Assembly: GCF_016907515.1 (NCBI RefSeq)
Contig: NZ_JAFBBY010000001.1
Span: forward strand, 1,860,001 to 1,924,000
DNA: 64,000 nucleotides
Reading direction: 5' to 3'
Source: Nocardioides nitrophenolicus
GTDB taxonomy: Bacteria > Actinomycetota > Actinomycetes > Propionibacteriales > Nocardioidaceae
This document shows positions 1,453 to 47,858 of this stretch, one piece after another. Below the pieces are notes generated by a model. That model made no database searches. It worked only from the letters and a program-made list of their open reading frames with translations, and was not told where the DNA came from. How positions within the stretch are numbered: position 1 is the stretch's first letter; every line of letters starts with the position of its first letter. The position numbers and the translations under genes are program-made.

Positions 1453-2457
1453 ATGCCAGGGTGGTTCGAGATCAACGCCGCGGATCGGCCGGCTCCTCAG
1501 CGCCCGGAGTACTGGCGCAGCGCGGTGTGCGACCAGTTCGTGCCGCTGGCGGTCGAGCCGGGCGGCGGCATGCTGCGCGGCCGGGTCGCGGGCGGCGACG
1601 TCGCCGAGCTGCGCCTGCGCCGGATCCGCGCAACCCAGCACGGGTTCGAGCGCCGGCAGCGCGACATCAGCGCGGCCGACCCGGAGGTGCTGCACCTGCT
1701 GCTGCTCGACCACGGCGAGACGCTGGTCGAGCAGGACGACCGCGCCACCTCGATGACGCCGGGCGACCTGCTGCTCTACGACAGCTCACGCCCGTTCCGG
1801 TTCCGCACGGCCGGCGAGTTCCAGTTCACGATCTGCCTGATGCCCAAGCGGCTGCTTCCCGTCCCCGAGCGGGTCCAGCGCACCTGGACGGCCCGGGCTC
1901 TTCCCAGCGCGCACGGCGTGGCGGCCGCGGTCGCCCCGCTGCTCGCCTCGCTCGCCCGCCACGGCTCCACCGCCGACGCGGCCCAGCAGCTCGCGCTCCA
2001 GCAGGCCATGGTGAGCATGTACGTCGCACTGCTCTCCGAGACCGGCGTCGAGGGGCGTCCGCCGGCGGTCAACCTCTCGCTGGCGAAGTCCTATATCGCC
2101 CGCAACCTCGGTGATCCCCGGCTCTCCCCCGCCGACGTCGCCGCCGCGTGCAGCCTCTCCCTGAGCTATCTGCACCGCCTGTTCGCCAACGACGGCAGCA
2201 CCGTCGCCGGCTACGTGCGCGAGCAGCGCCTCCAGGCCGCCCACCGCGACCTCCTCGAGGCCGCGGTGCAGCAGCCGGTCGCCCAGATCGCGGAGCGCTG
2301 GGGGATCACCGACCCGGCGCACTTCAGCCGGATGTTCAAGAAGCGGTTCGGGAGCTCGCCGGCCGAGCTGCGCCGCCGGTGGCGGGTCGACTCCCCGGGC
2401 CGGACGTACGACGACACCCGGCCCGGGAACGCGGAGCTCACGCCAGCAGCGCGTTGA
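1453..2457 (+). CDS. AraC family transcriptional regulator
   Basis: A DNA-binding regulator of 334 aa. The N-terminal two thirds looks like the AraC-binding-like sensor domain common in actinobacterial catabolic regulators (DLLLYDSSRPFRF motif near residue 100). The C-terminal about 100 residues carry two helix-turn-helix segments (AAACSLSLSYLHRLF and IAERWGITDPAHFSRMFKKRFG). I chose ATG 1453 because homologous regulators begin with a short WFE-like lead-in; the frame stays open upstream to 1351 but that part is low-complexity. It is divergent from the amidase and convergent with the aldehyde dehydrogenase, overlapping its 3' end by 20 bp. The target is probably the amidase, by position only. 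Confidence 0.88.
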   Translation: MPGWFEINAADRPAPQRPEYWRSAVCDQFVPLAVEPGGGMLRGRVAGGDVAELRLRRIRATQHGFERRQRDISAADPEVLHLLLLDHGETLVEQDDRATSMTPGDLLLYDSSRPFRFRTAGEFQFTICLMPKRLLPVPERVQRTWTARALPSAHGVAAAVAPLLASLARHGSTADAAQQLALQQAMVSMYVALLSETGVEGRPPAVNLSLAKSYIARNLGDPRLSPADVAAACSLSLSYLHRLFANDGSTVAGYVREQRLQAAHRDLLEAAVQQPVAQIAERWGITDPAHFSRMFKKRFGSSPAELRRRWRVDSPGRTYDDTRPGNAELTPAAR

Positions 2458-3946
2458 CCGACTTCTGCTCGGTGTAGGCGTCGATCGCCGACGCACCGAG
2501 CTCGCGGCCCCAGCCGGACTGCTTGTAGCCGCCGAACGGCATCGCCGCGTCGAAGGCGTTGTGGCAGTTGATCCACACCGTGCCGGCCTTGATCTGGCGG
2601 GCCGTGCGGTGCGCCTTCGTGACATCGCGGGTCCACACCGACGCCGCGAGCCCGTACGGCGTGTCATTGGCCGCCGCGGCCACGCCCCGCTCCGCGTTGA
2701 ACGGGGTGGCGACGACCACGGGACCGAAGATCTCCTCGCGGTAGACGCTGAACGAGGAGTCGACGTCGACCAGGACGGTCGGCTCGACGTAGTAGCCGGT
2801 GTCGCCGTGGCGCCGGCCGCCGGTGAGCGCCCGGGCCCCGTCGCGCAGGCCGGCGTCGACGTACCCGAGGACCCGGTCCAGCTGGGTCTGCGAGACGAGC
2901 GGGCCGACGGTGGCGGTGGGGTCGAGGCCGGGACCGAGCTTGCTGGCGGCCGCGACCTCCGCGACCTTCTCGGTGAACTCGTCGAAGATCCGGTCCTCCA
3001 CGAGCAGCCGGGTGCCGCTGGTGCAGGTCTGGCCGTGGTTGAACAGGAAGCCCGACGCGGTGCCGGGGACGGCGAGGTCGAGGTCGGCGTCGGCGTACAC
3101 GACCTGGGGGCTCTTGCCGCCCAGCTCCAGCGAGACCTTCTTCAGGTTGCCCTTGGCCGCGTCGACGATCAGCTTGCCGACCTCGGTGGAGCCGGTGAAC
3201 GCGATCTTGTCGACGTCGTCGTGCGCGGCGAGCGCGGCGCCCGCGTCGCCGTACCCGGTCACGACGTTGAACACGCCGTCCGGCAGGCCGCACTCGGCCA
3301 TGATCTCGGCGAGCCGCAGCGCGGTGAGCGGGGTGTCCTCGGCGGGCTTGAGCACCACCGTGTTGCCGCAGGTGAGCGCGACGGGGATCTTGAAGGCGGC
3401 CATGAGGAGCGGGAAGTTCCACGGCACGATCGCGCCGCAGACGCCGACCGGCTCGCGCAGCGTGTAGGCGTGCCACTGGGTGCCGGGCGCCCACGGGACC
3501 GAGACCGGGATGGTGCGGCCCTCGATCTTGGTCGCCCAGCCGGCGTAGTACTGGAACAGCTCCGCGACCCAGGTGATGTCGACGGCCTGCGCGACCGCGG
3601 CCGACTTGCCGTTGTCGAGCGACTCGAGCTGGGCGAGCTCCTCGGCGTGGTCGTAGATCGCCTCGCCGATCCTGAACAGCAGCCGCTGCCGCTGGGCCGG
3701 CGTCCACAGCGACCACTCCCCCTCGAACGCGGTGCGGGCGGCCCGGACGGCGCGGTCGACGTCCTCGGCGGCGCCGTACGCGACCTCGGTGAGGACCTGA
3801 CCGGTGGCGGGGTCGCGGGTCTCGAAGGTGCGGCCGGTCGCCGCATCCACCCAGGCGCCGCCGATGAACAGGCGCTTGGGGCGGGCGAGCCAGTCGCGCA
3901 CCTCCGGCAGCACGGCGTGGTCGGTGGGGACGAGCAGGTCGGTCAT
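2438..3946 (-). CDS. NAD(P)-dependent aldehyde dehydrogenase
   Basis: Oxidises an aldehyde to the carboxylic acid. The protein is 502 aa, normal for the family. It has the general-base Glu at about 274 (ELGGKSP), catalytic Cys at about 308 (GQTCTSG), the NAD-fold stretch PWNFPL, and the C-terminal MPFGGYKQSGWGRE. The ATG at 3946 follows a good GGAGG. It lies downstream of the alcohol dehydrogenase-moxR-VWA genes on the same strand, after a 105-bp gap that holds its own copy of the 17-bp dyad found upstream of the alcohol dehydrogenase. It therefore probably takes the aldehyde made by that enzyme and shares its activator. Confidence 0.95.
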   Translation of the reverse strand: MTDLLVPTDHAVLPEVRDWLARPKRLFIGGAWVDAATGRTFETRDPATGQVLTEVAYGAAEDVDRAVRAARTAFEGEWSLWTPAQRQRLLFRIGEAIYDHAEELAQLESLDNGKSAAVAQAVDITWVAELFQYYAGWATKIEGRTIPVSVPWAPGTQWHAYTLREPVGVCGAIVPWNFPLLMAAFKIPVALTCGNTVVLKPAEDTPLTALRLAEIMAECGLPDGVFNVVTGYGDAGAALAAHDDVDKIAFTGSTEVGKLIVDAAKGNLKKVSLELGGKSPQVVYADADLDLAVPGTASGFLFNHGQTCTSGTRLLVEDRIFDEFTEKVAEVAAASKLGPGLDPTATVGPLVSQTQLDRVLGYVDAGLRDGARALTGGRRHGDTGYYVEPTVLVDVDSSFSVYREEIFGPVVVATPFNAERGVAAAANDTPYGLAASVWTRDVTKAHRTARQIKAGTVWINCHNAFDAAMPFGGYKQSGWGRELGASAIDAYTEQKSVNALLA

Positions 3947-4011
3947 GGTTCCTCCGTTGCGGGGTGGGCGTTCGGTGCGGTGCGAGCGTCGTCCGGCCCG
4001 GGGAGCGGCGG

Positions 4012-4028
4012 TGTTCAGCTTCTGGACA
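4012..4028. promoter_or_regulatory. 17-bp operator-like dyad, copy 1 (upstream of aldehyde dehydrogenase)
   Basis: TGTTCAG-CTT-CTGGACA: 7-bp arms matching at 6 of 7 positions, separated by 3 bp. It lies 66 bp upstream of the aldehyde dehydrogenase start. The same arms occur at 7104-7120 between the alcohol dehydrogenase and the GAF/Fis-type regulator. I infer that this is the binding site of that regulator. Confidence 0.65.
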
Positions 4029-4051
4029 ATCGGCGCTGCCGCGGGGCGCGC

Positions 4052-4996
4052 TCAGGGCGCGAGCAGCCGGTCGAGGACGCCGGGCAGCTCGGCCAGCCGG
4101 TCGAGCGAGGCCATCCGGGCCCCGGCCGCGCGGGCGAAGCGGCGCGCCTCGTCGTCGTCCGAGGCGGGCGCGACGACCAGCAGCTCGTCGAGGCCGCGCG
4201 CCGCGGGCAGCGGGTCGACGTCGTCAGTGACCCGGCAGTCGGAGAGCAGCACCGTGATCCGGCGCCGGGCCCGGGCGCCGGCGAGCTGCTCGCGCGCGGC
4301 CCGCAGCGCGGCGTCGAGCGAGGTCATGCCGTGCCCGCGCAGGCCGAGCACCCGCTCGACGGTGCGCCGGGCCGGGCTCGTCGTACCGAGGGCGAGGACG
4401 GTCTCGGCGCGCCGGTCGAAGGCGACGACCGCGAGCTCGCCGCCGGACTCGGCCGAGCGCAGCGCGCACGCCGCGGCGGCCATGGCGGCGGTCGCGAGCC
4501 GCCGGCCGTCCATCGAGCCGGAGCGGTCGACGAGCAGGCACAGCGCGCTCGCGGGCCGCTCCCAGAGCGACGAGGTCAGCTCGTCGAGGGCCGGTGGACG
4601 GCCCTCGCCCCGGGCCACGGCGACCGCCTCCAGGGAGGCGTCCAGGTCGAGGTCGCCGCCGCGGTCGGCGCGGGCGGGGCGCAGTCGGCCGGCACCGATC
4701 CGGCCGTGCGGGCCGCTGCGCGCCCGCTCGATGACCAGCCGCGGCACCAGGGCCTGCACCCGCGCCCGCAGCGCGGGATCGGTGGCCCGGCTCATCAGCG
4801 CGAGCAGCGGCAGCACGTCGTCCGGGTCCTCGGCGACGGCCGCCTCCACGGCCTCGACGTCGAGCTCGCCGACCTCGGGCGAGAGCTCCTGGAAGCGCGG
4901 GTTGCGCGCCAGCTCGGCGCGGCCGTGGGTGCGGTCCGGACGGCCGCGCCGGGATGCCGGTGGTGGTTCGCCCGCCCCGGCCGGGGGCGGGCTCAG
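4052..4996 (-). CDS. VWA-domain protein, partner of MoxR ATPase
   Basis: A von Willebrand factor A protein with the metal-ion-dependent adhesion site DRSGSMDG (DxSxS) and a downstream Thr in HGMTSLDAA. MoxR-VWA pairs act as chaperones that activate or load cofactor into enzymes. The usual starts do not fit well. The only in-frame GTG (4849) would remove a plausible coding stretch (NPRFQELSPEVGELDVEAVE), while a CTG at 4996 overlaps the moxR stop codon as CTGA, so I draw the gene from there. N-terminal residues are Pro/Gly-rich and poorly conserved-looking. It is translationally coupled to moxR and precedes the aldehyde dehydrogenase. The start is uncertain; the family is secure. Confidence 0.82.
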   Translation of the reverse strand: MSPPPAGAGEPPPASRRGRPDRTHGRAELARNPRFQELSPEVGELDVEAVEAAVAEDPDDVLPLLALMSRATDPALRARVQALVPRLVIERARSGPHGRIGAGRLRPARADRGGDLDLDASLEAVAVARGEGRPPALDELTSSLWERPASALCLLVDRSGSMDGRRLATAAMAAAACALRSAESGGELAVVAFDRRAETVLALGTTSPARRTVERVLGLRGHGMTSLDAALRAAREQLAGARARRRITVLLSDCRVTDDVDPLPAARGLDELLVVAPASDDDEARRFARAAGARMASLDRLAELPGVLDRLLAP

Positions 4997-5916
4997 GCTC
5001 CCCCCGGGCTCGGCTCCTCCTGCGCGCCACTTCGCGCCGGGTCGGCACCATCTTCCGAGCCACTTTCTGCCGGGTCGGCGAAATGGGTGCGGTAGAGCTC
5101 GGTGATGATCTCCTCGGGCGAGCGGGTGGAGGCCTCGTCGACCCGGACCCGGCCGCTCAGGGCGACGAGAGCGGCGTCGAGACCGGCGTGCCAGTCGTCC
5201 TCGGCGACGCCGCGGGAGCGGGCCAGCTGGTGGTTGATGCCCGCCAGGTCGATGGTGCCGCGCACCGAGGAGCCGACCCGCAGCTCGGGGTGCTCGCGGG
5301 TCGCCCGGACCAGGGCCACGGCACGGTCCCGCCAGTCGTCGGAGGGCACCGGCGCGCGCTGCGCGAGGATCCGCGCCTCCGAGTCGGCGGACTGGTAGCC
5401 CATCGCGATCCGGCAGGTCCGGTCGTAGACGGCCGAGGAGACCCGGGCGGTGCCGACGGCGTCGTACGGGTTCATCGCGGCGACGACGGCGAAGCCCGGG
5501 GCCGCGCGCACCGCCCCGAGCCGTGGCACCACGATCTCCCGCTCCGACATGACCGTGAGCAGGGTGTTGAGGGTCTCCTCGGGCACCCGGTTGAGCTCCT
5601 CGACGTACAGCAGGCCGCCCTCGCGCATCGCGGTGAGCAGCGGCCCGTCGACGAAGACGTCCGGCTGGTAGCCCCGGCTGAGCACCAGGGCGGGGTCGAA
5701 GTGGCCGACCAGCCGGGCCGGGGTCAGCTCGGCGTTGCCCTCGACGAGGGCGAACGAGCGGTCCCGGCCGGCGGCGACCCGGCGCAGCAGGGTGGTCTTG
5801 CCGGTCCCGGGAGGCCCCTCGAGGACGACGTGGGCGCCACTGGCCAGCGCCGCCTCGAGGAGCTCGGTCTCCCGCGCCCGGTCGACGACCGCGAGCGCCG
5901 CGAGCACAGCGGTCAT
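4993..5916 (-). CDS. MoxR family AAA+ ATPase
   Basis: A 307-aa AAA+ chaperone ATPase. Walker A is GPPGTGKT at residues 34-41, Walker B is GGLLYVEELNR near 105-115, and a sensor-like AAMNPYDAVGT follows. The ATG overlaps the alcohol dehydrogenase stop as TGATG, and its own stop overlaps the VWA gene, so the three are translationally coupled. It probably remodels or activates the neighbouring dehydrogenase together with the VWA protein. The last 30 residues are unusual: two 11-residue repeats of the form ADPAxSG, encoded by DNA related to the intergenic repeat array at 36435-36690. Confidence 0.92.
   Translation of the reverse strand: MTAVLAALAVVDRARETELLEAALASGAHVVLEGPPGTGKTTLLRRVAAGRDRSFALVEGNAELTPARLVGHFDPALVLSRGYQPDVFVDGPLLTAMREGGLLYVEELNRVPEETLNTLLTVMSEREIVVPRLGAVRAAPGFAVVAAMNPYDAVGTARVSSAVYDRTCRIAMGYQSADSEARILAQRAPVPSDDWRDRAVALVRATREHPELRVGSSVRGTIDLAGINHQLARSRGVAEDDWHAGLDAALVALSGRVRVDEASTRSPEEIITELYRTHFADPAESGSEDGADPARSGAQEEPSPGGA
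5028..5093. repeat. Two 33-bp repeat units inside the 3' end of moxR
   Basis: Two tandem units begin with CAC and share the core CGGGTCGGC (cores at 5037-5046 and 5070-5079). They match the core of the 32-bp-period array at 36435-36690, but here the period is 33 bp, which keeps the reading frame and yields the ADPAxSG repeat at the protein's C-terminus. Confidence 0.75.
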
Positions 5917-7028
5917 CAGTGCTCGTGGACGACGACGCCCCGGACGTTCTTGCCGTTGAGGAGGTCGTCGTAGCCCTCGTTGACCTCGTCGAGCGTGTAC
6001 GTGCGGGTGATGATCTCGTCGAGCTTGAGGTCGCCGGACTGGTAGAGGCCGAGGATCCGCGGGATGTCGACGGTCGGGTTGCAGTCGCCGAAGAGGCTGC
6101 CGCGCAGCTCCTTGCGGTAGAGCGTGAGCACCGAGCCGGGCAGCTGGATGTTGGTCTCCTCCAGCTTGTTGAGGCCGGTCAGCACCACCTTGCCGCCCTT
6201 GCCGACGGCGTTGAAGCCGTCGGAGACGATCTCCGACGTCATCAGGCCGGGCGTGAGGATCGCCGAGTCGGCCATCTGGCCGCGGGTCAGGTTGGTGATC
6301 GTCTCCATCGCGAGCTCGGCGGACTCGAAGGCGTGGGTGGCGCCGAGCTCCATCGCCTTCTCGCGCTTGTTGGCGAGCGGGTCGATCGCGATCACGTTCT
6401 TCGCGCCGGCCAGCGCCGCGCCCTGGACCGCGTTGATGCCGATGCCGCCGATGCCCATGATCACGACCGTCTCGCCCGCCTTGACCTCGGCGGTGTTGAC
6501 GGCGGCGCCCCAGCCGGTGGGCACGCCGCAGCCGACCAGGACGGCCTTCTCGAGCGGGAGGTCGTCGTCCACCTTGACGCAGGAGTTCTGGTGGATGACG
6601 CCGTACTGGCTGAAGGTGCCGAGCATGCACATCGCGCCGTACTCGCCGGCGGGGCCGGTGATCGGGAACCGCTCGCCGGGCAGGTAGCCGTCGAGGATGG
6701 TCGCACCCATGTCGCAGATCGACTGCTGGCCGTTGGCGCAGTAGCGACAGGTGCCGCAGTTGGGGATGAACGAGCAGACCACGTGGTCACCGACCTTGAC
6801 CCGGGTGACGCCGGGGCCGACCTCCTCGATGATCCCGGCGCCCTCGTGCCCGAGGACCATCGGCAGCCGGGCCTCCAGGTCGCCGTGGGCGATGTGCACG
6901 TCGGAGTGGCACAGGCCGGCGTGGGTGTAGCGGATCAGGACCTCGCCCTCGCGGGGCTTGTCGAGGGTCAGCTCCTCGATCACGATCGGCTTGCCGGTCT
7001 CGTAGACGACTGCGGCCTTGGTCTTCAT
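5916..7028 (-). CDS. NDMA-dependent zinc alcohol dehydrogenase
   Basis: Oxidises an alcohol using a tightly bound NAD(H); enzymes of this actinobacterial family are assayed with N,N-dimethyl-4-nitrosoaniline. The protein is 370 aa. Catalytic zinc ligands are Cys40 and His61-Glu62, structural zinc ligands are Cys91/94/97/105, and the NAD-binding GIGGIG lies near residues 196-201. The ATG at 7028 follows AGGAGA. It is first in the operon with moxR, the VWA gene and the aldehyde dehydrogenase. The dyad at 7104-7120 sits between it and the divergent GAF/Fis-type regulator. The likely job is alcohol to aldehyde, with the acid made by the enzyme at 2438-3946. Confidence 0.93.
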   Translation of the reverse strand: MKTKAAVVYETGKPIVIEELTLDKPREGEVLIRYTHAGLCHSDVHIAHGDLEARLPMVLGHEGAGIIEEVGPGVTRVKVGDHVVCSFIPNCGTCRYCANGQQSICDMGATILDGYLPGERFPITGPAGEYGAMCMLGTFSQYGVIHQNSCVKVDDDLPLEKAVLVGCGVPTGWGAAVNTAEVKAGETVVIMGIGGIGINAVQGAALAGAKNVIAIDPLANKREKAMELGATHAFESAELAMETITNLTRGQMADSAILTPGLMTSEIVSDGFNAVGKGGKVVLTGLNKLEETNIQLPGSVLTLYRKELRGSLFGDCNPTVDIPRILGLYQSGDLKLDEIITRTYTLDEVNEGYDDLLNGKNVRGVVVHEH

Positions 7029-13651: not shown

Positions 13652-13771
13652 TCGGGCTGTAACACGGGGTTCGCTGGTGTTCCGGACCCGCTCGGGCTGT
13701 AACACGGGGTTCGCGGGTGTTCCGGACCCACTCGGGCTGTAACACGCGGTGCGCCGGTCTTCCCGACCCGA
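13652..13771. repeat. Three tandem 40-bp repeats downstream of icmF
   Basis: Units start at 13652, 13692 and 13732, each opening TCGGGCTGTAACACG and ending near GACCC. Units 1 and 2 are nearly identical; unit 3 has diverged. They start 4 bp after the icmF stop codon. A degenerate inverted copy follows at 13816-13853. The block is not protein-coding as far as I can see. Confidence 0.85.
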
Positions 13772-34841: not shown

Positions 34842-36434
34842 ATGACCGACACCCTCGCGCCCGAGTCCGCGCCCGCCCACGACGACGGGCCGCCGACCGT
34901 CAACCCGGCCGCCGGCTCGCCGGCCAACCAGCAGGCCAACTTCGCCTCCCGGCCGATGACCGGCGACGAGTACATCGAGAGCCTCCGCGACGGTCGCGAG
35001 ATCTACCTACAGGGCGAGCGGGTCGAGGACGTCACCACGCACCCGGCGTTCCGCAACCCGATCCGGATGACCGCCCGCCTGTACGACGCCCTCCACACCG
35101 GCCCGCACGTCGACGAGCTCACCGTGCCCACCGACACCGGCAACGGCGGCGTCACCATGCCGTTCTTCAAGACGCCCACCTCGTCGGCCGACCTGCTCAA
35201 GGAGCGCGACGCGATCGCGCGCTGGGCCAAGATGACCTGGGGCTGGATGGGCCGCAGCCCCGACTACAAGGCCAGCTTCCTCGGCACCCTCCACGCCAAC
35301 AAGGAGCTGTACGCGCCGTTCGAGGCCAACGCCGAGCGCTGGTACCGCGAGTCCCAGGAGAAGGTCCTCTACTGGAACCACGCGATCATCAACCCGCCGG
35401 TCGACCGCAACCTGCCGCCCGACGAGGTCGGCGACGTCTACATGAAGGTCGAGAAGGAGACCGACGCCGGTCTCGTCGTCTCGGGCGCCAAGGTGGTCGC
35501 CACCGGCTCGGCGATCACCAACTACAACTTCATCGCCCACTACGGCCTGCCGATCCGCAAGAAGCAGTTCGCGCTGATCTGCACCGTCCCCATGGACGCG
35601 CCGGGCGTGAAGCTGATCTGCCGGACGTCGTACACCCAGCAGGCGGCGCAGAACGGCACCCCGTTCGACTACCCGCTGTCGAGCCGGATGGACGAGAACG
35701 ACACCATCTTCGTGTTCGACAAGGTGCTGGTGCCCTGGGAGAACGTCTTCATGTACGGCGACGTCGACCGGATCAACGCGTTCTTCCCCCAGTCCGGCTT
35801 CCTGCCCCGGTTCACCTTCCAGGGCTGCACCCGGCTCGCGGTCAAGCTCGACTTCATCGCCGGCCTTCTGATGAAGGCGCTCGACACCACCGGCTCCGGC
35901 GACTTCCGCGGCGTACAGACCCGGGTCGGCGAGGTCATCGGCTGGCGCAACCTGTTCTGGTCGCTCACCGAGTCCATGGCCCGCGACCCCGAGCCGTGGG
36001 TCGGCGACGCGGTCATCCCGAAGCTGGAGTACGGGCTGACCTACCGGATGTTCATGATCCACGGCTACCCGCGGGTCAAGGAGATCATCGAGCAGGACGT
36101 CGCCTCCGGCCTGATCTACCTGCCGTCCGGCTCCGCCGACTTCAAGTCCGCCGAGGTGCGCCCGTACCTCGACAAGTACGTCCGCGGCTCCAACGGCATC
36201 ACCGCCGTCGACCGGGTCAAGGTGATGAAGGCGCTGTGGGACTCCATCGGCACCGAGTTCGGCGGCCGGCACGAGCTCTACGAGCGCAACTACTCCGGCA
36301 ACCACGAGAACGTGAAGGCCGAGCTGCTCTTCGCCGCCCAGAACCGCGGCATCGTCGACCAGATGAAGGGCTTCGCCGACGAGTTCCTCGGCGAGTACGA
36401 CCTCGACGGCTGGACCGTCCCCGACCTGTTCTGA
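34842..36434 (+). CDS. 4-hydroxyphenylacetate 3-hydroxylase-type flavin monooxygenase (HpaB family)
   Basis: A 530-aa FADH2-dependent aromatic hydroxylase that adds a hydroxyl ortho to a phenol. Family motifs include [17 protein letters not shown] at the N-terminus, KASFLGTL near residue 143, and the FAD/acyl-CoA-dehydrogenase-like core ([27 protein letters not shown] near the end). The flavin reductase is directly upstream with GAGGAG as ribosome-binding site. The phenol is unknown; the cluster suggests a lignin-derived one. The stop codon lies at the first unit of the 32-bp repeat array. Confidence 0.92.
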
Positions 36435-36690
36435 CCGACCCGGCTCGAAAGTGCGCGTGTTTTCCGCCGACCCGGCTCGAAAGTGCTCCGGATTTGCGCC
36501 GACCCGGCTCGAAAATGCACGCCAAACCCGCCGACCCGGCGCGAACTTCGCGCCGGGTCGGCGTCATTTCGGCGCACTTTTCTGCCGGGTCGGCGCAACA
36601 CCAGCGCGACTTTCTGCCGGGTCGGCGCAACACCAGCGCGACTTTCTGCCGGGTCGGCGCAAGACCAGCGCGACTTTCTGCCGGGTCAGC
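36435..36690. repeat. 32-bp-period inverted repeat array filling the gap between convergent genes
   Basis: Four forward units with the core GCCGACCCGGC (GACCCGG starting at 36437, 36469, 36501, 36533) are followed by five inverted units (CCGGGTC at 36553, 36585, 36617, 36649, 36681). The period is exactly 32 bp throughout. Three inverted units are almost identical over the full length, while the forward units share only about 18-20 bp. The array can fold back on itself about a centre near 36546. It starts at the HpaB stop codon and runs into the AraC stop codon. No gene lies in it. Confidence 0.9.
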
Positions 36691-37654
36691 GGTGGGCGGA
36701 GGGTGGCTCGCCGTAGCGCCGGCGGTACGCCGCGGCGAACCGGCTGGCGCTGGAGAAGCCCCAGCGAGCCGCGACCTCCCCGACGGTCGGCGGCGGCTGG
36801 GCGGCGAGGTCGGCGCGGGCCCGGCGCAGCCGGATGTCGAGGAGGTACGCCGACGGGGTGCAGCCGAGCCACTGCTGGAATGCCTCCTGCAGCCGCCGCA
36901 CGCTCGTGCCGGCCAGGGCGGCCATCTCGGCGGCGGTCCAGGCCCGGGCGGGGTCGTCGTGGAGCTGCTCGACGACGCGGCGGACGTGCCACGGTCGGGC
37001 CGGCGGGCTGGCGACTTCGGGGGCGCGGCACAGGTCGACCAGGCCGGCGACCAGCGCGCCGGCGAGCTGCTGGCGCACCAGGTCGCTGTCGGCGAACAGG
37101 TGGGGATCGTGCAGGTTGGTGGCGAGGCTGGTGACCAGCTGGCGCCAGGCCCGGCCGCGCCCCTCGTCGAGGCGCAGCTGGTCGGGCAACAGCTCTCGTA
37201 CGCCGACCCGGTCGGTGCCGAGCAGCCGCTCGGCCTCCACGTCGAACCAGGCGCTGTCGAACTTCACGCCGAGCACCGTGCAGGTCGCGTCCCAGTGGCT
37301 GATCAGCGACGGGGCGTCGGCGCGGAACACCGTGCCCTGCCTGGCGACCGAGGTGATCGGGCCGTGCCGCCCCCGGCTCTCGAGGTGTCCGGTGATCGGC
37401 AGGTTGACCTCGTAGGCGCCGGGGTAGTCGCAGTCGATCGCGACGTCGGCGCCCCAGCCGACCTGGCCGATCATGACCGGCCCGAGGTCGAGGGTGCGCA
37501 GCGTCAGCCGCGGCTCGTGGACTCCGCCGACGAGCCGGAGCTCGTGGGGGAAGTAGGCCGCCGCGACGACCCGGGAGGCACTCCCCCAGTCACGCGGCGA
37601 CCGGCCCCGGACCCGCTCGGACACGCTGCGCAATCTACCTGAGACGGAGGTCAC
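36686..37654 (-). CDS. AraC family regulator of the guaiacol demethylase genes
   Basis: A 322-aa regulator, paralogous to the one at 33155: AraC-binding-like N-terminal domain ([25 protein letters not shown]) and C-terminal HTH ([43 protein letters not shown]). It is divergent from gcoA, and two 14-bp direct repeats lie between them. The GTG at 37654 is the first start; a second GTG 30 bp inside is also possible, and neither has a good ribosome-binding site. The stop codon is in the last unit of the repeat array. Confidence 0.88.
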
Positions 37655-46139: not shown

Positions 46140-47858
46140 CTAGCGGCGCCGGCGGGCGGTGCCGAACATCCCGCGGGCGATCTCGGCGGCGGCGGTGCGC
46201 ATGAACTGCTTGAACGCCGAGGACTTCACCACGTCCTTGACGATCTCGCCCGCGGCGTTGCCGTCGTCCTTCTTCCTCGGCGCGGCCTTGCCCTTGGCGG
46301 CGGGCTTCTCGGCCTTGTCGGCCTGCTCCCCGGCCTTCGCCTTCGCGCCCTCCTCCAGCTTCTTGGCGAGGATCTCGCGGGCCGACTCCCGGTCGACCAC
46401 CTCGGCGTACTTCGCCTGCCGGGGGCTGGCCTTGACCGTCGCCTCCATCGACTCCGCGCTGGACGGCGCCATCAGCGACTCCGGCGCGCGCAGCCGGGTC
46501 CAGGCGACCGGCGTCGGCGCGCCCTTCTCGCCCATCACGGTCACGATCGCCTCGCCGATGCCGAGCGTGGTGATCACCTCGCCGAGATCGGCGTACGCGC
46601 TCTTGGGGTAGGTGTTGACGGTCGCCTTGAGCGCCTTCGCGTCATTGGGGGTGTGGGCGCGCAGCTGGTGCTGGATCCGGGAGCCGAGCTGGGCCAGCAC
46701 GTCGTCCGGTACGTCGGTCGGGCTCTGCGTCACGAAGAAGACGCCCACCCCCTTCGACCGGATCAGCCGCACCGTCTGGGCGATCGACTCCAGGAACGGC
46801 TTCGAGGCGTCCTTGAACAGCAGGTGCGCCTCGTCGAAGAAGAACACCAGCTTGGGCTGGTCGATGTCGCCGACCTCGGGCAGGTCGTGGAACAGGTCGG
46901 CGAGCAGCCACATCAGGAAGGTCGAGAAGATCGCCGGCCGGTCCTGCAGGTTGGGCAGCTCGACCAGGTTGACCAGCCCGCGCCCGTCGGATGCCTGCTG
47001 GAGCAGGTCGGCGGAGTCGAACTCCGGCTCGCCGAAGAACGCCTCGGCGCCCTGGTCGGCGAACGCGATCAGCTCGCGCAGGATCACGCCCGCGGTCGCC
47101 GAGGACAGCCCGCCAAGGTCCTTGAGGTCGGGCTTGCCCTCGTCGCTGGTGAGGTGCTGGACGACGGCACGCAGGTCCTGCAGGTCGAGCAGCGGCAGGC
47201 CCTGCTTGTCGGCGTAGTGGAAGACCAGGCCCAGGCTGGACTCCTGGGTGTCGTTGAGCCCGAGCACCCGGCTGAGCAGGATCGGCCCGAACGACGACAC
47301 GGTCACCCGGATCGGGATGCCGATGCCCTGGCCGCCGAGCGCGTAGTACTCCACCGGGAAGGCCGTCGCCGTCCACTCCTGGCCCACCGACTTGGTCCGG
47401 GCCAGCAGCTTGTCGTTGGCCTCGCCGGCGGTGGCGATGCCGGACAGGTCGCCCTTGATGTCCGCCGCGAAGACGGGTACGCCGGCCGCGCTGAGCTGCT
47501 CGGCGAGCAGCTGGAGGGTCTTGGTCTTGCCGGTACCGGTCGCACCGGCCACCAGGCCGTGCCGGTTGAGCATCGCCAGCGGGATCCGGATGGTGCTGGC
47601 CGAGAGCTGGTCGGGGCCGGTCATCAGGCCGCCGAGCTCGAGCGCCGGGCCCTCGAAGGCGTACCCGGGGGCGATCGCCTGCTCGATGGGGTCGGTCGGC
47701 ACGGCGGCGGGGGCCTCGGCGGCGGGGGCCTCGGCGGCGGGGGCCTCGGCGGCGGGGGCCTCGGCGGCGGGGGCCTCGGCGGCGGGGGCCTCGGCGGGGA
47801 CCGCCGGGGCCGTGGTGTCAGGTGCTGCGTCGGGAGTGGGCGTCTGCTCCTGCGTCAT
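46140..47858 (-). CDS. HerA-like ATPase (DUF853 family)
   Basis: A 572-aa P-loop ATPase of the helicase-HerA/DUF853 type. After a low-complexity N-terminus (EAPAA repeated) come Walker A GATGTGKT near residue 105 and Walker B LVFFFDEAHLLF near 348, with QSPTDVPDDVLAQLG following. Lys/Ala-rich C-terminal tail. It is thought to act in DNA or chromosome processing, but members are poorly characterised; no nuclease gene lies adjacent. Confidence 0.88.
   Translation of the reverse strand: MTQEQTPTPDAAPDTTAPAVPAEAPAAEAPAAEAPAAEAPAAEAPAAEAPAAVPTDPIEQAIAPGYAFEGPALELGGLMTGPDQLSASTIRIPLAMLNRHGLVAGATGTGKTKTLQLLAEQLSAAGVPVFAADIKGDLSGIATAGEANDKLLARTKSVGQEWTATAFPVEYYALGGQGIGIPIRVTVSSFGPILLSRVLGLNDTQESSLGLVFHYADKQGLPLLDLQDLRAVVQHLTSDEGKPDLKDLGGLSSATAGVILRELIAFADQGAEAFFGEPEFDSADLLQQASDGRGLVNLVELPNLQDRPAIFSTFLMWLLADLFHDLPEVGDIDQPKLVFFFDEAHLLFKDASKPFLESIAQTVRLIRSKGVGVFFVTQSPTDVPDDVLAQLGSRIQHQLRAHTPNDAKALKATVNTYPKSAYADLGEVITTLGIGEAIVTVMGEKGAPTPVAWTRLRAPESLMAPSSAESMEATVKASPRQAKYAEVVDRESAREILAKKLEEGAKAKAGEQADKAEKPAAKGKAAPRKKDDGNAAGEIVKDVVKSSAFKQFMRTAAAEIARGMFGTARRRR
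47706..47795. repeat. Six tandem 15-bp repeats coding EAPAA
   Basis: The unit GGCGGGGGCCTCGGC starts at 47706, 47721, 47736, 47751, 47766 and 47781 with no substitution visible. It codes the N-terminal EAPAA repeats of the HerA-like protein; the unit is a multiple of three, so copy-number change would keep the frame. Confidence 0.9.

Follow-up and report, generated by a model that had tools for sequence, protein, structure and literature searches.

An array of 32-bp units between two convergent genes

In the 64-kb window analysed here, a contiguous stretch of the Nocardioides nitrophenolicus genome, two convergent genes enclose an array of short repeats that extends from position 36434 to 36690. 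The left flanking gene (34842..36434, plus strand), recognised both as an ORF and by a hexamer gene call and present in other Nocardioides genomes, encodes what we take to be a 4-hydroxyphenylacetate-3-hydroxylase-like protein. The right one (36686..37624 on the minus strand according to the gene call, with the start placed at 37654 in the ORF list) presumably encodes an AraC-type regulator.

The array comprises four forward units, marked by GACCCGG at 36437, 36469, 36501 and 36533, and five inverted units, marked by CCGGGTC at 36553, 36585, 36617, 36649 and 36681; a recount confirmed these positions and the exact 32-bp step inside each arm, the step between the arms not being 32 bp. Both arms were also recovered independently by Tandem Repeats Finder with a period of 32 (scores 131 and 212). 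Forward units 1 to 3 (36434..36465, 36466..36497 and 36498..36529, plus strand) are followed by a central hairpin at 36530..36562, in which forward unit 4 and inverted unit 1 stand back to back as GCCGACCCGGCGCGAA-C-TTCGCGCCGGGTCGGC, i.e. as a 33-nt palindrome with a single central base. Inverted units 2 to 5 follow on the minus strand at 36563..36594, 36595..36626, 36627..36658 and 36659..36690. The core of the first unit, ACCGACCCGGC, begins at 36434 and overlaps the final base of the left gene's TGA stop codon (36432-36434), and the core of the last one, GCTGACCCGGC, reaches 36690 and spans the right gene's stop codon (TCA, 36686-36688). Thus, the array runs from stop to stop, and both edges bear out the original prediction that it fills the convergent gap.

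The tails of the central pair (GCGAA on both sides) match each other, unlike those of the remaining units, which read TCGAA in the forward arm and AGAAA in the inverted arm; the same array centre is found in genomes G187 and G188. Three inverted units had been described as nearly identical and taken as a sign of recent amplification. Indeed, units 3 and 4 are identical and unit 5 differs by two bases, and a single 32-bp unit separates G187 from G188 at this locus, the distance between these two genomes in the rpoB tree being a zero branch length. The predicted capacity to form a very long stem is likewise confirmed: as RNA the array folds into one rod (-178 kcal/mol, z -15.2), and the opposite strand folds at -195 kcal/mol (z -13.9). 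In the whole window the core occurs 48 times with at most one mismatch, against 16.8 copies expected, a number reached in 0 of 100 shuffles. Two other tandem repeats were noted in the window, a 40-bp repeat in three copies (13652-13770) and a perfect 15-bp repeat in 6.4 copies (47702-47797).

The array family in the source genome

The earlier description of the array itself stands, but it missed that this array is one of many, and that it belongs to a family found across the genus, the members of which differ in their tails and fall into several period classes. In the complete source genome of the window (G000, 5.8 Mb) the exact 11-base core is present in 443 copies, compared with 86 for the reversed control, and 74 pairs of cores lie exactly 32 bp apart, compared with none in the control. 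For an inventory of units we used a weight matrix derived from 118 seeds (score of at least 12) on an 864-kb sample, of which 424 kb are contiguous and include the window, the remainder having been picked around known hits. It reported 181 units, with about 2 expected from second-order Markov sequence, and is conservative, as it reports six of the nine units in the window. A typical unit consists of the core GCCGACCCGGC, a tail of about 12 bases (majority AGAAAGTGGCTC) and about 9 variable bases.

The 181 units fall into 34 clusters of 2-9 units, nine of them in the contiguous 424 kb, and not one solitary unit was found among the clusters of the 864-kb sample. A forward arm followed by an inverted arm is seen in 30 of the 34 arrays, and one more is an overlapping palindrome. 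The other three have units of a single orientation, two of them (4794629 and 4795797) being halves of one array split by a gene. In this split array (L060, contig positions 4794629-4795957) a 323-aa minus-strand gene separates the forward arm from the inverted one, as though it had entered the array at its central loop; the N-terminus of its product presumably resembles AbiEi-type antitoxin domains. The third is a degenerate pair of units with a step of 33 in the window (5015..5080, minus strand), located at the C-terminal end of ORF 4993-5907 (minus strand), the product of which we take to be an AAA-type ATPase. The reading frame of this ORF runs on through both units, which suggests a lost stop codon.

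Arrays lie downstream of genes

Analysis of the genomic neighborhood, based on gene calls from a hexamer model built for this work rather than on a published annotation, revealed a positional bias. In G000, 25 of the 34 arrays occupy convergent gaps, eight lie between co-directional genes and one is inside a called ORF, at its 3' end, so that 33 of 34 are outside called genes. Among the 814 adjacent gene pairs of the sample 161 are convergent, 155 divergent and 498 co-directional; the convergent excess has a binomial p of 2e-11 and the absence of arrays from divergent gaps (0 of 34) a p of 8e-4. Seven of the eight co-directional arrays lie within 25 bp of the 3' end of the upstream gene, and the remaining one is 101 bp off. 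In seven other Nocardioides genomes, 28 clusters of at least three cores are distributed among convergent (15), co-directional (12) and divergent (1) gaps, and 18 loci from other genera of the family, with gene calls trained on G000, are divided into nine, seven and two, respectively. In the contiguous 424 kb of G000 only 6 of 65 convergent gaps contain an array; because of this low occupancy, and because many orthologous gaps have no array, the arrays are dispensable.

Conservation at orthologous gaps

We identified 60 adjacent gene pairs common to G000 and the sampled relatives. Arrays are present in both species in eight gap pairs at seven G000 loci (two with G188, four with G139, one each with G014 and G098), and in one further pair, with G202, only G000 has an array, its gap measuring 176 bp as compared to 32 bp. 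The eight shared pairs are not to be read as a rate, since the G139, G014 and G098 regions were chosen for their arrays, which the G188 stretch was not.

Eight pairs were aligned, namely six of the shared gaps and the window locus in G187 and in G188, which are near-identical genomes. Identity amounts to 492/519 (95%) in the cores, 361/505 in the tails, 180/322 (56%) in the spacers and 87/105 in other array bases, compared with 402/460 in the 30 bases of gene on either side. Thus, the core is better kept than the adjoining gene ends and the spacer drifts, with the contrast between core and spacer somewhat inflated by an aligner that anchors on cores.

Two loci were followed across a larger set of genomes. 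The left gene of the window locus or a homologue was found at 30 loci, with an array after its stop codon in six (G000, G187, G188, G227, G014 and G132) and none in the other 24, some of which are distant homologues. The array has 3+4 units in G187 and 4+4 in G188; in G227, G014 and G132 it follows the left gene, but the neighbouring gene is a different one, and G168 has the same neighbour (judged by eye) with a plain hairpin in place of the array. At the second locus, where the flanking gene was found in 24 of 30 genomes, arrays or units are present in G000, G169, G139, G132, G014, G098, G234 and G227; G008 and G024 have them with different cores and tails. Of the 24 genomes, eleven have neither array nor units there, and three (G021, G200 and G113) were left unjudged, because it was not clear that the match extended to the end of the gene.

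The innermost pair covaries, the second pair out does not

Covariation between the two arms was assessed in 30 of the 34 G000 arrays, after removal of the three single-orientation arrays and the overlapping palindrome. The tails of the innermost pair are complementary at 0.77 of positions, compared with 0.65 between arrays (0 of 10000 permutations), and the second pair out shows no covariation in the same arrays (0.68 vs 0.72). Adjacent units of one arm in G000 are more alike than expected by chance (0.77 vs 0.72), which indicates that local homogenisation exists; off-centre forward/inverted pairs in G000 are not more alike than chance.

When 71 hairpins from seven genomes were pooled, a set that includes a few non-array hairpins (38 from G000 as compared to the 30 clean ones), complementarity exceeded the control in tails (0.763 vs 0.684, 0 of 5000) as well as in cores (0.935 vs 0.923, 2 of 5000). 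Taken singly, G000 (0 of 1000) and G139 (32 of 1000) are significant and the other five genomes, with 2-6 hairpins each, are not. We counted 38 double complementary changes, in 22 of the 71 hairpins, vs 161 single or non-matching changes. At one gap in G227 and G234 the core itself has changed on both sides, GACCCGT being paired with ACGGGTC, and an outer unit in G227 shares the GACCCGT-type change. Template switching at quasi-palindromes could yield matching arms without selection. Arrays in which all units point the same way (three of the 34 in G000, one in G014, and L369 and L373 in G443) indicate that the hairpin is not obligatory.

As regards intrinsic termination, the hairpin is kept by compensatory change (pooled set, G000 and G139), and no T-run directly follows the central hairpin. 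A terminator scan returned no more than a pair of weak, overlapping 5-bp stems followed by a T-rich tail (36557-36580, on one strand); they start in the end of the central hairpin, and 0.6 such hits are expected by chance.

Period classes and tail dialects

The spacing of units was examined in 113 core-bearing tandem gaps, any lag from 12 to 60 bp being allowed, in regions that in many genomes had been chosen because pattern hits lay there. The dominant period is 32, with 71 of the 113 gaps (31 in G000, 14 in G139, 8 in G014, 6 in G153, the others spread over five more genomes). Its neighbours are 33 (4 gaps, G152), 31 (5 gaps; G099, G001 and G152) and 30 (2 gaps); shorter and longer periods are represented by 21 (4 gaps, G025), 22 (9 gaps, five in G021 and one in each of four others), 23 (1 gap) and 44 (1 gap, G152). 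The remaining 16 gaps have lags of 12-19 (12), 28 (1; in G033, where it belongs to a different repeat family) and 51-56 (3). The main classes lie near two, three and four turns of B-DNA; such phasing is suggestive and is given modest weight, since the classes are few and related by descent. In one array of G152 (L164, 14391-15012) the left arm has a period of mostly 44 bp and the right arm of 33 bp, so that pairing of arm with arm cannot set the period there.

Tails differ among genomes to a variable extent. Mean tail identity within a genome is 0.52 for G000, 0.67 for G014, 0.73 for G153, 0.59 for G139 and 0.50 for both G098 and G188. Between genomes it drops to 0.34 for G000-G014 and for G000-G153, and is 0.54 for G000-G139, as high as within G000. 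Thus, dialects clearly separate some species and not others. Despite their tail identity of 0.34, G014 and G000 have arrays at one shared gap and behind two further shared genes. G306, a member of another genus of the family, has two kinds of unit in one array.

Distribution in Nocardioides and beyond

Pairs of GACCCGGC at 32 bp occur six or more times in 18 of 215 Nocardioides genomes, the highest control count being 5. In the rpoB tree, which took 28 of the 30 chosen genomes (G183 and G213 were left out), a clade of ten that includes G000 consists entirely of carriers of such pairs. Pairs of CCGACTCGG, for which any gap from 8 to 32 bases was allowed, reach a count of at least 10 in 44 of the 215 genomes (highest control count 6); G000 has none, and G172 alone belongs to both sets. 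A looser pattern, applied to a sample of the order, added six genomes of the genus with counts of at least 10 (G025, G198, G113, G116, G145 and G013). By these pattern counts, with the sequence inspected in some genomes only, related arrays are present in at least 67 of 215 Nocardioides genomes. They share the core GCCGACCCGGC or GCCGAGTCGGC, and their tails differ among many species. Most Nocardioides genomes show no array by these patterns, which could miss arrays with other cores.

Outside the genus, counts of at least 10 were obtained in a sample of 391 genomes of the order for all three genomes of genus g14 and for one of ten genomes of g12, a genus of the same family (G454, count 10). 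G083 also has a count of 10, but its ten pairs are a simple 13-bp repeat. Among the matches listed, most named records that contain three spaced cores belong to Nocardioides, including N. albus, N. luteus, N. gansuensis, N. glacieisoli, N. iriomotensis, N. silvaticus, N. flavescens, N. carbamazepini, N. speluncae, N. ungokensis and others; isolated arrays appear among these matches in a Streptomyces, a Curtobacterium and three MAGs of other groups. The arrays in Curtobacterium (L300) and Streptomyces antnestii (L266), outside the family, are isolated, have a period of about 32 bp and contain GCCGACTCGGC or GCCGGGTCGGC. G208 has 133 core pairs at 32 bp genome-wide, yet no array was noticed in the 100 kb examined. 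In G033 convergent gaps (L136-L138) are filled by another repeat family, GTTGGTCGAGGAGG...CGTCTCGAGACC, with dominant lags of 28 and 55.

Relationship to known repeats and terminators

The original prediction knew of no named element like this one, and we found none either: literature searches, including searches by the letters of the core, gave no description of these arrays among the matches listed, and the main text of three repeat surveys (PMC12306157, PMC3733652, PMC2267715), as far as consulted, does not name Nocardioides. Comparison with Rfam yielded 11 hits, all below the gathering cut-off, the best being MIR8670 (42.4 bits vs 150, E 7.7e-7), which we read as a hairpin look-alike. A recombination site and a small structured RNA, two of the functions initially suggested, found no support, given the lack of an Rfam match at the gathering threshold and the retention of arrays at several orthologous gaps. 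A plasmid or phage origin was rejected, as plasmid and phage records, from which near relatives may be missing, contain no similar DNA.

A close analogy is provided by REP/BIME elements of the GTAG and CGTC super-families, described in part of a survey as short, palindromic, extragenic high-copy repeats found mainly in convergent and co-directional gaps (PMC3733652). The arrays resemble them in being extragenic and downstream of genes (33 of 34 outside called genes, none in divergent gaps), but they differ in having direct tandem units of fixed period, two inward-facing arms, no solitary copies and differing tails. The RAYT-type Y1 transposase (PF01797) was found in only one of 215 genomes of the genus, G182, which has no arrays by either pattern, and is absent from G000 and from the 18 genomes rich in 32-bp core pairs; in the same search 5 of 14 control genomes were positive, E. 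coli among them. Neither a GTAG nor a CGTC tag is the majority reading of the unit consensus (118 seeds). Membership in REP/BIME is therefore rejected on account of the missing transposase, the absent tags and the different architecture, and we call the arrays elements of the extragenic-palindrome kind that fall outside REP/BIME and form a new type, no earlier description of which appeared among the literature matches listed.

With respect to termination, the consulted part of a Streptomyces clavuligerus study reports strongly structured transcript ends without a U-tract, and bidirectional ends with long stems (PMC8269248). The likeness to such bidirectional or U-lacking (I-shaped-like) terminators of high-GC actinobacteria consists in a strong GC hairpin, which here too would end transcripts of both strands, whereas the fixed repeated core and phased outer units of our arrays are not described in that part of the study (PMC8269248). 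The DNA uptake sequences (DUS) of Neisseriaceae, according to the portion of the source used here, also form dialects with a shared core, and their inverted pairs are linked to terminators, but there are 2245 to 5918 copies per genome and intragenic ones are common (PMC3630211); the units described here number a few hundred, are clustered in phased arrays, are hardly ever genic and, in the 34 clusters of the G000 sample, are never solitary. Regular repeats with variable spacers are reminiscent of CRISPR, from which the arrays differ by their spacers of about 9 bp, two opposed arms and position at gene ends. In N. dokdonensis, part of the genome report states, CRISPRFinder detected ten arrays without adjacent cas genes (PMC5526307). 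These ten CRISPR-like arrays may be of the present kind.

In animals, Sal-box/TTF-I arrays downstream of ribosomal DNA are tandem, oriented protein sites that follow gene ends and block the polymerase. This is a eukaryotic Pol I system, and the protein for our arrays is hypothetical; to our knowledge, Sal-box/TTF-I arrays have no bacterial counterpart.

A possible role at the ends of converging transcripts

In the reading that we favour tentatively, the observed anatomy, 3'-end location, conserved cores and spacing, covarying central pair and species-differing tails are those of a cis-acting bidirectional terminator or insulator, which combines a U-poor hairpin with phased protein recognition sites. 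The innermost forward and inverted units would pair into a hairpin, GC-rich and poor in U, at which transcripts arriving from either side end, and the outer units, approximately whole turns of B-DNA apart, would act as oriented recognition sites for a sequence-specific protein. Once bound, this protein might strengthen the block to transcription, e.g. as a roadblock. Termination or insulation of converging transcripts is the most likely job of the arrays in view of their location, the covariation at the centre and the precedent for U-poor and bidirectional transcript ends in the consulted part of the Streptomyces study (PMC8269248), which supports the terminator among the functions originally proposed. 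A hypothetical protein that reads the units is suggested by the conservation of outer cores and spacing without covariation of partners, by single-orientation arrays, by arms of unequal period and by changed tails at fixed positions. Termination of transcription by the arrays, the reading of their units by a protein and a joint change of this protein and the tails are all inferences on our part.

A bolder version, which we regard as rather doubtful, is that the arrays are landing platforms for a new sequence-specific protein, which would terminate or insulate converging transcription via helically phased, oriented sites, and that a change in the specificity of this protein rewrote the tails at many loci, with positions fixed, giving rise to species dialects. 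That such platforms represent the bacterial counterpart of roadblock terminators is a proposal we put forward with equal reserve.

The same features might be explained by structure only, a somewhat unlikely solution in which the array is an over-grown bidirectional hairpin terminator, the outer units arose by 32-bp slippage and add extra stem at most, and no protein is involved. The folding of the whole array as one rod agrees with this, as do the variation in unit number (by one between the near-identical G187 and G188), the plain hairpin in the G168 gap with the same neighbour gene (by eye), the covariation of the central pair and the similarity of adjacent units within an arm. However, slippage alone would not keep cores at 95% and spacers at 56% identity in orthologous arrays, even if this contrast is somewhat inflated, and the second symmetric pair does not covary, single-orientation arrays exist, and the two arms of one array differ in period (about 44 and 33 bp). 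A selfish or neutral dispersed repeat, homogenised by gene conversion and building up in the space between converging genes because it is least harmful there, would be patchy in occurrence, present and absent at the same gap and variable in its tails, as observed, and could account for the two kinds of unit in one G306 array. We consider it unlikely, because no solitary units occur among the 34 arrays, the same gaps are occupied in different species, the Y1 transposase is confined to one of 215 genomes (G182, without arrays), plasmid and phage records contain no match, and conversion would need to copy the core yet not the spacer.

Some E. coli BIMEs bind gyrase, and convergent location and spacing by approximately whole turns would suit a topological or nucleoid site, bound by gyrase or a nucleoid protein at places where positive supercoils accumulate from converging transcription. 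Differing tails would not be accounted for if the units were read by a conserved enzyme like gyrase, and only 6 of 65 convergent gaps in the 424 contiguous kb have an array, which makes this quite improbable in our view. Least credible, and hardly to be expected at all, is an uptake signal, in which a competence receptor would bind the units and biased transformation would have spread them, as with the DUS of Neisseriaceae. DUS are reported to come in dialects around a common core and in terminator-linked inverted pairs, but they number 2245 to 5918 per genome and are often intragenic, as stated in the part of the source used (PMC3630211), as opposed to a few hundred clustered units with 33 of 34 arrays outside called genes.

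If the terminator/insulator reading with protein recognition sites is true, a large actinobacterial genus contains many species in which some converging transcripts end at a repeated DNA module that a protein can read, rather than at a plain hairpin, and the wording of this module changes in concert within a genome; a new kind of termination or insulation factor could then be sought, and high-GC hosts would gain compact insulators that work from both sides. Should the arrays be purely structural, they still provide, with periods near two, three and four helical turns, dialects and orthologous gaps that contain a plain hairpin, a natural series for studying why bacterial gene ends gather repeats.
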